From positions 1-64,000 of the forward strand of contig CAJXMH010000001.1 of assembly GCA_913056345.1 (NCBI GenBank): 64,000 nucleotides of DNA, written 5' to 3'. This DNA is from an uncultured Flavobacteriales bacterium (lineage in GTDB: Bacteria; Bacteroidota; Bacteroidia; Flavobacteriales_E; Vicingaceae). The translations under genes were made by a program, and so were the position numbers. This document shows positions 22,092 to 26,725 of this stretch, one piece after another (positions within the stretch are counted from its first letter, which is position 1; the number at the start of each line of letters is the position of its first letter). Below the pieces are notes generated by a model. That model was given only the letters and a program-made list of their open reading frames with translations. It did no database searches and was not told the DNA's origin.

Positions 22092-22264
22092 CTTTGCTTC
22101 ATAGTCTAACGCCTATAACATTTCGACTTCGCTCAATGTAAACTGCTCCATAGGAATTTGCTATATGCAAATCCCTATCACGCAAACATCATCAATCTGC
22201 TCAAGGCCTTTTTTCCATTCTTCAAAAGTTTTATCAATCTCTCTTCTTTGTGCTTCCATATCGA
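22092..22264 (-). repeat. 173-bp direct repeat, left copy
   Basis: Identical by eye to 23817-23989 (offset 1725 bp); weaker similarity continues on both sides, to about 22010 on the left and 22330 on the right. It covers the last coding bases of the phosphatase and about 70 bp of noncoding DNA after its stop. The ATPase gene 22388-23602 lies between the copies. Confidence 0.85.
22118..22139. repeat. Short palindromic element with complementary flanks
   Basis: On the minus strand the core TGAGCGAAGTCGAA is bordered by ACAT and ATGT, which are complementary. An identical copy lies at 23843-23864 inside the larger repeat, and a variant with GCAC/GTGC borders is at 24637-24658. Confidence 0.6.
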
Positions 22265-22349
22265 TCTCTTGAATGCTTAGGAGCAAGCGTTTAAAGTTTA
22301 ACGACTTGAACTTTCTTACCTTGTTCCACCAGTACCATACAACTCTCAA
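22161..22349 (-). pseudogene. Truncated SpoIIE phosphatase 3' end
   Basis: An open frame of 62 codons whose last 50 residues (from KFKSLNFKRLLLSIQE to the end) match the C-terminus of the full phosphatase at 23886-26045 with one substitution (I for L). The upstream catalytic domain is absent and the N-terminal dozen residues (MRVVWYWWNKVR) are unrelated, so this is a gene fragment left by duplication, not a functional protein. Confidence 0.75.
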
Positions 22350-23816: not shown

Positions 23817-23989
23817 CTTTGCTTCATAGTCTAACGCCTATAACATTTCGACTTCGCTCAATGTAAACTGCTCCATAGGAATTTGCTATATGCAAATCCC
23901 TATCACGCAAACATCATCAATCTGCTCAAGGCCTTTTTTCCATTCTTCAAAAGTTTTATCAATCTCTCTTCTTTGTGCTTCCATATCGA
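23817..23989 (-). repeat. 173-bp direct repeat, right copy
   Basis: Identical by eye to 22092-22264. It includes the last 35 codons of the full phosphatase gene and its downstream noncoding sequence, with the palindromic element at 23843-23864. Confidence 0.85.
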
Positions 23990-26045
23990 GCTCTTGAATG
24001 CTTAACAACAAGCGTTTAAAGTTTAAAGATTTGAACTTCTTGCCTTTCTCCCCGCCAAACTGATCCACAAAACCATCAGAGAAAAGATAGAGGGTGTCAC
24101 CTTGTTCAAGCTCAAAAGTATGGGTGGTATAAGGCTTGGTCGTTTCGTATTTACCAATTGGTTGTTTGTCCGCTTTGATCTCCGCTAATTGATAGGCTCC
24201 ATTTTCTGAATCACTAATGCGACTCCCCGCAGGGAGTGTAGCTTCATCAAACTTTCCTTTTCTAATCAGCCAGAGCGGGTTGTGGGCACCGGCGTATTTT
24301 AAAAGGGGCTTCTCGGCTCCCTGTCCGTCCGGTAGGCGGGCGCTCGAAGTCCCTTTTAAATTTAGTGAACAAAGCGCGATGTCCATTCCATCTTGCACTT
24401 CTTCTTCTGATTTTTCAAATTCCTTGATCACCAGCTCTCGGGTTTTATCTAAGATCTCACCCGGTTCTGTCAAGCCAAATTCTTTCACCGAACGGTTCAG
24501 CGCATTATTACACACAACCGAAACCATAGCGCCCGGCACTCCATGTCCGGTACAATCGGCTGCCGCAAAATAGATCACATCGGCTTCTCGACTCCCTGTC
24601 CGTCCGGCAGGCGGGCGCTCGAAGTCCGATGTAATTGCACTGAGCGGAGTCGAAGTGCCTGTGCTGAGCGAAGCCGAAGTGAACCAGTAAAAATCCCCGG
24701 CCACCACATCTTTGGGTTTGTAGAGAATGAAGGACTGTTTTAAGTAAGTTTTCACGAGTTTAAGAGAGGGGAGTATTGCACCCTGAATTCTTTTCGCGTA
24801 AACAATTGAACTTTGAATTTCTTGATGCTGAAGCTGAAGCGTGCTATGAGAATCCTCTAATTCCTCTTTCTGATATTGGATCTGTTCTGTTTTAAGGCTG
24901 ATCTCTTGCTTCTGTCTTCGCGTGATCCTTAATCGTTGCACAACAAAAACAGCGAAAGTCAATACCAGAAATGAGCCAGCAAAAATTGCATAATTAATAA
25001 GCTTTTGTTCACGTTTCTCTTGTTCTCGAACTAGTTCCTTAATTCTCTTTTCTTTGTTGACTTTGTATTTTAGTAAGGATTTTGAAGCTTCTTGATAGAC
25101 TTTTTTACTTGCAATGCTGTCTTCTAGTTTGTAGCGCCGTTTAAGGTAATCTAGGGCTTTTTCATACTCACCTTCTATTTCTTTGAGTTTAGAAAGCTCT
25201 TCATAGATCAAGACAACATTATCCAATGCCTTGGATTCTTTAGCAAACTTTACAGCTTCTTTTAGGTAAAGTTCAGCTTCTCTTTCTTTTCCAAGTTTCA
25301 ATTTAATCTCTGCTAATTGGCGGTAGGTTTCACCCAATCTTTTTTTGTCGTTCAACTTTAGGTATTCACCTAGGGCATTAATGCAATATTCAATCGCTTT
25401 TTGATAGGCTCCTTTCTTGTAATAGGTTCCTCCAATTAAAAGATAAGAATCGGCTTTGCTTCTAGGATTATTCGTTTTACTTCTTTCTACAAGTGCTCTC
25501 TGGTGATAGAATAAAGCTGAGTCTAGTTGGTTATTTTCTCGATAGAGATTAGCAATATAGGTGTAGATAAATCCGAGTCTTTCTGAACTCTCTAACTCTT
25601 TTTGAATGCTCAAAGCTTTAAAATAAAACTCTTTAGCTGTTTCGAATTCTCCAAGTGTGGTGTTTACATAACCTATGTATTGGTAAGCTAATGCCTGATT
25701 ACTTGAGTCTCGCTCACTTTCTGCCAATTCAAGAGCACTGATTGCTCTTTTCATGGCTGTTTCGTAATCACTATTGTAAATGGCAACATAGGCTAATTGG
25801 TTATAACTTTTCGCTTGCCCGCTCAACCAATCTGATTCTTTACTTTTTGCAAGTGCCTGCTCAGCGTAGTTTTGCGCGCTATTCAGTGAACCCTTAAGTT
25901 GGTATTCTTTAGATAATGCTATAAATAGGTTTACTTTTTGTACATCGGTTTCGGGATTAACTTTTAGAAGCGAATCTAATCTAGGCCTTGAATGTGCACT
26001 TAATCCTAAAAGGAAAAGTATGATAAGCGATACTGCCCTATTCAT
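23886..26045 (-). CDS. TPR - membrane - SpoIIE (PP2C) phosphatase with in-frame palindromic inserts
   Basis: Sensor-type serine phosphatase, probably controlling a partner-switch or c-type output. The start at 26045 overlaps the upstream stop (ATGA) and gives a signal-like N-terminus (AVSLIILFLLGLSAHS). Then come six or more TPR repeats (about 30-330), one membrane segment (AIFAGSFLVLTFAVFVVQRL, about 350), a coiled coil and the SpoIIE domain with VVAGDFYWF, AADCTGHGVPGAMVS, YAGAHNPLWLI and LYLFSDGFVDQFGG, so metal-binding aspartates are kept. Three to four insertions in loops (SDFERPPAGRTGSREAD, GTSSARLPDGQGAEKP, ATLPAGSRISDSEN and the STGTSTPLSAI stretch) come from palindromic repeats and keep the frame. 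Confidence 0.85.
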   Translation of the reverse strand: MNRAVSLIILFLLGLSAHSRPRLDSLLKVNPETDVQKVNLFIALSKEYQLKGSLNSAQNYAEQALAKSKESDWLSGQAKSYNQLAYVAIYNSDYETAMKRAISALELAESERDSSNQALAYQYIGYVNTTLGEFETAKEFYFKALSIQKELESSERLGFIYTYIANLYRENNQLDSALFYHQRALVERSKTNNPRSKADSYLLIGGTYYKKGAYQKAIEYCINALGEYLKLNDKKRLGETYRQLAEIKLKLGKEREAELYLKEAVKFAKESKALDNVVLIYEELSKLKEIEGEYEKALDYLKRRYKLEDSIASKKVYQEASKSLLKYKVNKEKRIKELVREQEKREQKLINYAIFAGSFLVLTFAVFVVQRLRITRRQKQEISLKTEQIQYQKEELEDSHSTLQLQHQEIQSSIVYAKRIQGAILPSLKLVKTYLKQSFILYKPKDVVAGDFYWFTSASLSTGTSTPLSAITSDFERPPAGRTGSREADVIYFAAADCTGHGVPGAMVSVVCNNALNRSVKEFGLTEPGEILDKTRELVIKEFEKSEEEVQDGMDIALCSLNLKGTSSARLPDGQGAEKPLLKYAGAHNPLWLIRKGKFDEATLPAGSRISDSENGAYQLAEIKADKQPIGKYETTKPYTTHTFELEQGDTLYLFSDGFVDQFGGEKGKKFKSLNFKRLLLSIQELDMEAQRREIDKTFEEWKKGLEQIDDVCVIGICI
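24218..24241. repeat. Palindrome inside the phosphatase gene (LPAGSRISD insert)
   Basis: GACTCCCCGCAGGGAGT forms a hairpin with arms ACTCCC/GGGAGT. It encodes the LPAGSRISD stretch in the loop after KGKFDEA, a place where related SpoIIE domains have a shorter loop (family knowledge). The ACTCCCTG half is shared with the 46-bp elements. Confidence 0.45.
24307..24352. repeat. 46-bp in-frame repeat element, copy 2
   Basis: Matches 24582-24627 at 44 of 46 positions. It is bordered by AAAAGGG on one side and CCCTTTT on the other, complementary sequences that are different from those of copy 1. It encodes GTSSARLPDGQGAEK in the phosphatase without breaking the frame. Confidence 0.75.
24582..24627. 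repeat. 46-bp in-frame repeat element, copy 1
   Basis: Matches 24307-24352 at 44 of 46 positions. It is bordered by ACATCGG (24577-24583) and CCGATGT (24626-24632), complementary to each other. It encodes SDFERPPAGRTGSREAD just before VIYFAAADCTGHG, next to the catalytic metal site of the phosphatase. Confidence 0.75.
24637..24681. repeat. Two adjacent short palindromic elements inside the phosphatase gene
   Basis: 24637-24658 is the core TGAGCGGAGTCGAA with complementary borders GCAC/GTGC. 24661-24681 is a second, slightly diverged copy with core TGAGCGAAGCCGAA. Together they encode the SASLSTGTSTPLSAI stretch upstream of the 46-bp element. The core is the one found outside genes at 22118-22139. 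Confidence 0.6.
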
Positions 26046-26725
26046 ATCCACCCTTTCACCCAATAATAACTGATGGCAAAGTACTCACGGAGCACTTTGA
26101 TCTCATACTGCAAATAGCTCCAAAGGTTATAACGCAAAGAAAGGTTTCTTACTCTCGTCTCTTCTTTGTCAGTCTTGTCTTTTAATTCCTCTTCATCACT
26201 CGGCTTCTCAAAAGTTGGTAAACTGCCAATTTCTTTAAAACCTACTTTTTCAAAGCTGCGTATAGCGCGGTAAAGGTGTTCTGGAGAACTTACGATCAGG
26301 AGCTTTTTCTCTGCCTCAAAAAGTTTTCGAACTTCAAGAGCTTGAGAGCGGGTATTGAAACCATTTGGTTCATAAATGATCCGATTGCGGTCAATTCCTT
26401 TTAGCGCTAGCTCATCGCCCATAAGTTCTAATTGCTCTATGCTACCATCTTTATTTCTAGGTAGGGCAATTACCACCTTTGCATTCGGGTTTTCTATAGC
26501 TGCTTCTGAGCCATAATACAACCTTAACAATCCATTTGGAGAAGGCATACCATCACCACCCATCACCACGATCACATCTGCTTTTCCATCTAATTGTTGG
26601 TGATTTAAAGAAAGGGCATGATAAGCGAAGTAGGGAACATCAGTAAAAGCCAGGAGGATTAAAGCACTGGCTATAATGCCAATCGTAATAAATAAGTGCT
26701 TTAAAACTTTTAGGATCAGTCCCAT
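26042..26725 (-). CDS. YdcF-like (DUF218) membrane protein
   Basis: DUF218 proteins are membrane-linked Rossmann-like proteins with suspected envelope roles. The 227-residue protein has an N-terminal membrane segment (LFITIGIIASALILLAFTD, about 10-28), then ADVIVVMGGDGMPSPNGLLRL, ALKGIDRNRIIYEPNGFNTRSQALEV and LIVSSPEHLYRAIRSFEKVGF, the family's conserved blocks. It overlaps the phosphatase start by 4 bp (ATGA), so the pair is probably co-translated. Confidence 0.85.
   Translation of the reverse strand: MGLILKVLKHLFITIGIIASALILLAFTDVPYFAYHALSLNHQQLDGKADVIVVMGGDGMPSPNGLLRLYYGSEAAIENPNAKVVIALPRNKDGSIEQLELMGDELALKGIDRNRIIYEPNGFNTRSQALEVRKLFEAEKKLLIVSSPEHLYRAIRSFEKVGFKEIGSLPTFEKPSDEEELKDKTDKEETRVRNLSLRYNLWSYLQYEIKVLREYFAISYYWVKGWI

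Follow-up and report, generated by a model that had tools for sequence, protein, structure and literature searches.

The phosphatase gene and its two in-frame inserts

The window, i.e., the whole 64-kb stretch of DNA that was analysed, contains a single open frame on the minus strand (23886-26063) that holds both copies of a 46-bp composite element, each in frame. The encoded 725-aa protein matched the Pfam profiles TPR_12 and SpoIIE (PF07228, E 1.5e-15). The two copies are identical at 44 of 46 positions and spaced by 275 bp, and their 33-bp core occurs twice in the window as compared to 0 occurrences in 100 shuffles. Within the phosphatase, copy 1 lies between CSLNLK and LLKYAGAHNP and copy 2 between DFYWF and VIYFAAADCTGHG; in an alignment with 23 relatives, copy 2 was located after DFYW and copy 1 before YAGA, in two loops that both vary in length. 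Coordinates and alignment agree in these respects with the initial annotation, which had likened the copies to protein-coding palindromes, and in-frame palindromic insertion into loops is evident from the ORF and the alignment. The principal features are as follows:

23886-26063, minus strand: host gene for a 725-aa protein that has TPR repeats and whose C-terminal phosphatase domain is SpoIIE-type (PP2C-like) (ORF list; Pfam TPR_12 and SpoIIE)
24307-24352, plus strand: copy 1 of the 46-bp composite, situated in the loop flanked by CSLNLK and LLKYAGA (repeat comparison, alignment)
24298-24307, plus strand: flank arm of copy 1, TTTAAAAGGG, the A/T part of which is native Leu-Leu-Lys on the coding strand (native by NLKTNLLK of paralog L020)
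24351-24360, plus strand: flank arm on the other side of copy 1, CCCTTTTAAA, with an A/T part that is native Leu-Lys on the coding strand (comparison with L020)
24582-24627, plus strand: copy 2 of the 46-bp composite, situated in the loop flanked by DFYWF and VIYFAAADCTG (repeat comparison, alignment)
24577-24583, plus strand: flank arm of copy 2, ACATCGG; the coding strand, GATGTGATC, encodes Asp-Val-Ile and is native-like (alignment)
24626-24632, plus strand: flank arm on the other side of copy 2, CCGATGT, which separates the element from the adjoining repeats (flank comparison)

The flanks TTTAAAAGGG/CCCTTTTAAA of copy 1 are complementary over 10 bp and those of copy 2, ACATCGG/CCGATGT, over 7 bp. 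Of random flank pairs with equal register freedom, 0.09% attained 7 bp and 0.005% attained 10 bp, which bears out the initial claim of complementarity within each copy. When folded with their flanks, copies 1 and 2 form stems of 15 and 11 bp, respectively, with the element on top, and the z-scores of -3.15 and -2.31 correspond to a short imperfect palindrome capable of forming a hairpin. The GG and CC ends are also present in a third copy and hence probably belong to the element. Among the other composite copies, flank pairing extends over just 3 bp in two and is absent from one further copy. A direct target-site duplication, as in MITEs, was found at neither window copy, the flanks being inverted repeats.

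Unrelated palindromic in-frame inserts recur in loop 1 of the SpoIIE-type phosphatases of this family (L005, L012, L018, L021, L027, L215, L226, L227, and L228), some of which resemble CGTCATTGCGA repeats. Loop 2 of L013 contains a 15-bp inverted pair in coding sequence, AACTTTCGGAAAGTT/AACTTTCCGAAAGTT, that involves no repeat element and is possibly a plain local inverted duplication.

Nested hairpins and a tip family with copy-specific stems

The 46-mer is composed of an outer REP-like hairpin, with the tip TCGACTYCGCTC and the stem CTTC/GAAG, and of an inner hairpin in this tip that follows the pattern CTGYCCG…AGGCGGG. The outer element is also present without an insert in the same genome (L145/L326, CTTCTCGACTCCGCTCGAAG), adjoining filled versions; in contig C29, the unfilled outer hairpin reads CTTC-TCGACTCCGCTC-GAAG and lies beside filled versions, CTTCTCGACT..CTGCCCGAAAAGCAGGCGGG..CGCTCGAAG. 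This side-by-side occurrence in C29 indicates that the tip of one hairpin harbours the other. The sequence AAAAGG/CCTTTT, which is part of the copy 1 stem, also surrounds two of the C29 outer elements. Two more members of this tip family adjoin copy 2, and others lie at and beyond the 3' end of the gene:

24321-24340, plus strand: inner hairpin of copy 1, CTGTCCGTCCGGTAGGCGGG, nested in the outer tip (unfilled outer element known in the same genome)
24596-24615, plus strand: inner hairpin of copy 2, CTGTCCGTCCGGCAGGCGGG, nested in the outer tip (unfilled outer element known in the same genome)
24640-24655, minus strand: CTTCGACTCCGCTCAG, a repeat of the tip family that lies in frame next to copy 2 and has the flanks GCA/TGC (repeat search)
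24664-24679, minus strand: CTTCGGCTTCGCTCAG, another repeat of the tip family that lies in frame next to copy 2 (repeat search)
23846-23861, plus strand: tip-family repeat 3' of the stop codon, with the stem CATT..AATG (alignment with paralog C44)
22121-22136, plus strand: the same tip-family repeat, within the partially duplicated (97%) 3' end of the gene (repeat search, alignment)

This partial duplication concerns a 231-bp stretch (22092-22322 versus 23817-24046, 97% identity) that comprises the phosphatase 3' end and the tip repeat; the two duplicates are some 1.7 kb apart, with the neighbouring ATPase gene in between.

The composite was detected in 2 of 395 genomes. Using a 41-base pattern with up to 2 mismatches, 3 copies were identified in this genome, which also has further variants, and 1 in the relative G004, whereas none was found in the remaining genomes of the class that were searched; the sole match in a scan of genome contigs was to the Flavobacteriales MAG UBA5081. 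The outer tip, CTTCGACTYCGCTCAG, in contrast, had exact matches in 23 of the 46 genomes of the order, as compared to 0 for a reversed control pattern, so that many dispersed copies, as in REP elements, exist for the tip family and not for the 46-bp composite. On their 3' side, most tip copies outside the window conserve a TGACA tail (TGTC on the other strand) that the window composite lacks, whereas the most frequent base per position indicates little conservation on the 5' side. The Rfam search gave no match, and a literature search with the tip and related sequences retrieved no relevant paper. In L103 and L106, tip-family repeats lie in frame in the linker that precedes C-terminal sorting-type domains (ASTSLS before VYPNP).

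By structure and dispersal, these elements are REP-like. They resemble the CGTC/TGTC-tagged super-family of REP elements (Di Nocera et al. 2013, PMC3733652) in being short dispersed palindromes that are mainly intergenic, sometimes in frame or inside larger palindromes, and in the TGACA tail that follows the hairpin in most relatives outside the window. The families of that super-family are defined by stems of 8-9 bp and loops of 4-5 bases (PMC3733652), whereas here a 12-base tip is conserved and the stem is variable; the window composite furthermore is without the tag and accommodates another hairpin inside its tip. REPs inside palindromes and REPs in frame within genes have already been described (PMC3733652), and the present elements are therefore not a new category. 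An association with RAYTs holds for GTAG REPs only, CGTC REPs having no dedicated transposase (PMC3733652). In the present genome, no RAYT gene (Y1 transposase) flanked by copies was found: its one Y1_Tnp match covers part of the profile and corresponds to a 168-aa frame, with no tip copies within the 3.2-kb locus. The search for Y1-type matches in this genome thus identified no dedicated mobiliser for the elements.

The initial annotation had asked whether flank complementarity is general, which is the case. In the 77 copies found with the 16-mer, the two positions just beyond it were complementary in 86% and 84%, as compared to 32% and 39% after swapping flanks between copies. In the 87 copies that match the 12-base tip exactly, the anchored stem score averaged 6.19 versus 2.54 with swapped partners, and the top score in 2,000 permutations was 3.12; the search pattern partly fixes the first two stem pairs, the outer pairs being free of pattern selection, and copies from one genome are not independent. 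The conserved part is consequently the tip, plus the tail in most copies outside the window, whereas the stem varies from copy to copy and yet pairs, in many cases extending into the adjacent sequence. At the matching site in the 3' ends of paralogous phosphatase genes, the stem is CATT..AATG in the window and CCCT..AGGG in paralog C44, i.e., two pairs have changed, each on both sides. Several intergenic copies sit in long terminator-like stems (L133, with AAAAAAGCCTAAAAGT/ACTTTAGGCTTTTTT, L088, and L120). Some stem types recur, namely, ACCC/GGGT in many copies of genus g13 and, in this genome, AAAAGG/CCTTTT in three places and AACGG/CCGTT in two, and many copies have outer arms unique to their locus.

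Native and newly copied arms

The initial annotation had considered the flank on one side as native and the other as apparently newly inverted, which for copy 1 is contradicted by the paralog L020. This uninterrupted protein reads CAL-NLKTNLLK-WSGA, with no repeat and the same residues on both sides of the site, as compared to CSL-NLK-[insert]-PLLK-YAGA in the window phosphatase; further paralogs have NTQTNQLL and NTKTNQLQ. It is just the kind of homolog that had been named beforehand as speaking against the proposal. From NLK-TN-LLK it follows that Leu-Lys and Leu-Leu-Lys, and therefore the A/T part of the palindrome on both arms, are native. Synonymous coding draws of these residues gave a stem of at least 7 bp in 0.7% and of at least 5 bp in 8% of cases; the former value leaves a tendency to be explained, for which new copying does not account. 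As regards copy 2, its GATGT arm resembles native coding sequence, with Asp-Val-Ile preceding Tyr-Phe-Ala, and its ACATC arm is located within other inserted DNA, between the element and the two further repeats.

The proposed new inverted flank is thus not supported for copy 1; the foldback idea has a real example elsewhere. In the loop of copy 2, paralog L021 has native CTATTGTTTTCTTT (codons of AIVFF) to the right of an inserted palindrome that is unrelated to the window element, and its left arm is a 14-bp inverted copy of this sequence with no counterpart in the uninterrupted paralogs read. The loop is ATA AAG AAA ACA ATA GGA CAT CCC CCT TCG GGG GAG TTA GGG GGA GCT ATT GTT TTC TTT GCA GCC GCA GAC, the right arm being the native strand running into the conserved Asp. 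Among 58 enlarged loop-1 regions, L021 was the only one in which the native-flank match exceeded the swapped control, and new inverted copying is the exception, not the rule. A match in L004, TTTTTATTG/CAATAAAAA, was rejected as an inverted copy, as it fell within the swapped control. To examine the element of L021, copies of another element family, CCCCCTTCGGGGGATTTAGGGGG, were gathered; the intergenic ones share flanks and are uninformative on native arms.

Another case is a nitrilase of G061, in which a tip-family copy has replaced about 11 native bases. Its left arm, TAAAG, is native, and the right arm, CTTTA, absent from the nine orthologs read that have no palindromic insert, is possibly a new inverted copy of 5 bp; by inspection, the native site is surrounded by a weak inverted repeat. 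The same genome also encodes an iPGM with an 18-bp tip-family insert, as judged against 12 relatives, in which no inverted copying is visible. Three species of one genus (G060, G031, and G061) carry three different palindromic in-frame inserts in one carbon-nitrogen hydrolase loop (L171, L173, and L170, respectively). Two genomes of genus g3 were also compared for palindromic insertions; just 46 kb could be aligned, at 85% identity, and nothing informative was found.

Possible origins of the complementary stems

Concerted stem change, terminator-like settings, and the recurring AAAAGG/CCTTTT are three facts that favour three different routes. The reading that we prefer, with a probability of about 0.4, is that REP-type hairpins are tolerated in loops and that their stems are kept or made complementary by template switching during replication. 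Accordingly worded as a sequence of events, a REP-like hairpin with a second hairpin nested in its tip would have entered permissive loops of the phosphatase, where the insertions would have survived because the reading frame was kept. Template switching within the hairpin at replication, in the form of quasipalindrome correction and occasional foldback copying, would then perfect imperfect flanks, alter both stem arms together, and sometimes write a new inverted copy of a flank; in copy 1, the native Leu-Lys and Leu-Leu-Lys codons would have supplied most of the flank match. This reading is supported by the pairing of own partners in the 87 copies, the two-sided stem change at a shared site, L021, and the G061 nitrilase. 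We give it preference since no other reading accounts at once for the concerted stem changes and for the L021 copy; moreover, the process is already described: template switching that perfects imperfect inverted repeats is known in E. coli and yeast, as outlined in PMC7202029, PMC3820800, and PMC8604942. The restriction of inverted copying to L021 among the 58 loops counts against it, and the tips inside ordinary terminator hairpins fit insertion without copying; some of the outer stem may also travel with the element, given the recurrence of AAAAGG/CCTTTT. Its margin over the two main rivals is small. Unrelated palindromes in phosphatase loop 1 and in the nitrilase loop of different species indicate that loop tolerance is general.

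Several known systems share parts of this picture. In quasipalindrome template-switch mutation, as summarized in PMC7202029 and PMC3820800, the arms of inverted repeats, coding sequence included, are likewise matched by copying one from the other, and a yeast protein example is outlined in PMC8604942; the process normally acts on existing imperfect inverted repeats, whereas here it would act on a dispersed inserted hairpin. The coding palindromes of Nematomorpha mitochondria, for which template switching was proposed, also have locus-specific paired arms in protein genes but are mitochondrial, much longer, and share no conserved tip or element (PMC6649704). Rickettsia palindromic elements (Ogata et al. 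2000, 2002, as cited in PMC6649704) are likewise palindromic repeats that lie in frame in protein genes and are apparently tolerated. The present elements differ in being shorter and in their Flavobacteriales host. To our knowledge, copy-specific stem extension is not a described feature of the Rickettsia elements.

An unlikely but serious alternative is that the element inserts preferentially at the tip of existing foldable sequences, such as a terminator or a chance inverted repeat within a gene, so that both arms are native; single-stranded DNA and a Y1-type transposase, for example, may be the vehicle. The A/T arms of copy 1, both encoding native residues, the intergenic copies inside terminator-like stems such as that of L133, the REP families reported within palindromes (PMC3733652), and the weak inverted repeat around the native nitrilase site are all consistent with such entry. 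It is at odds with the left arm of L021 and the nitrilase CTTTA arm, both missing in all uninterrupted relatives read, with the stem of an existing shared copy that changed on both sides after duplication, and with the lone Y1-type match, which has no flanking copies. Scarcely better or worse placed, and equally below even odds, is the movement of the whole hairpin, only the tip being constrained in sequence and the stems drifting by compensatory mutation. The recurring stem types, the TGACA tail that marks a defined element, and the compensated change at the shared site point in this direction, whereas the many copies with locus-unique outer arms, and the arms of copy 1, copy 2, and L021 that extend into native codons, argue against it.

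We regard as improbable that hairpin movement is coupled to self-primed foldback synthesis, each insertion writing its locus-specific stem. The 3' end of the inserted hairpin would pair with the 5' stem and copy the neighbouring host flank; L021 and the nitrilase copy would be its direct products, and a polarity would be expected in the orientation of the tip, with a native 5' flank and a new 3' flank. This polarity appeared consistent in three cases; it was no longer counted as evidence after both flanks of copy 1 had turned out to be native. It is very improbable that the two window sites are coincidental, with the GG/CC ends having met native or inserted bases that pair by chance, given that a single gene has two of them and that 87 tip-family copies share this property, even though synonymous coding alone can give the copy 1 stem at the rates stated above, copy 2 has just 5 bp past GG/CC, and of other composite copies two pair over 3 bp and one not at all.

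The combination of a conserved tip with locus-specific stems forms a natural record of small palindromes entering genes and of replication reshaping inverted repeats. Many copies reside in conserved proteins for which uninterrupted relatives exist, and ordinary comparative genomics can therefore separate the routes, namely, entry at hairpins, inverted copying of a flank, and compensatory drift. Such elements furthermore represent a simple source of new residues for variable loops in bacterial proteins.
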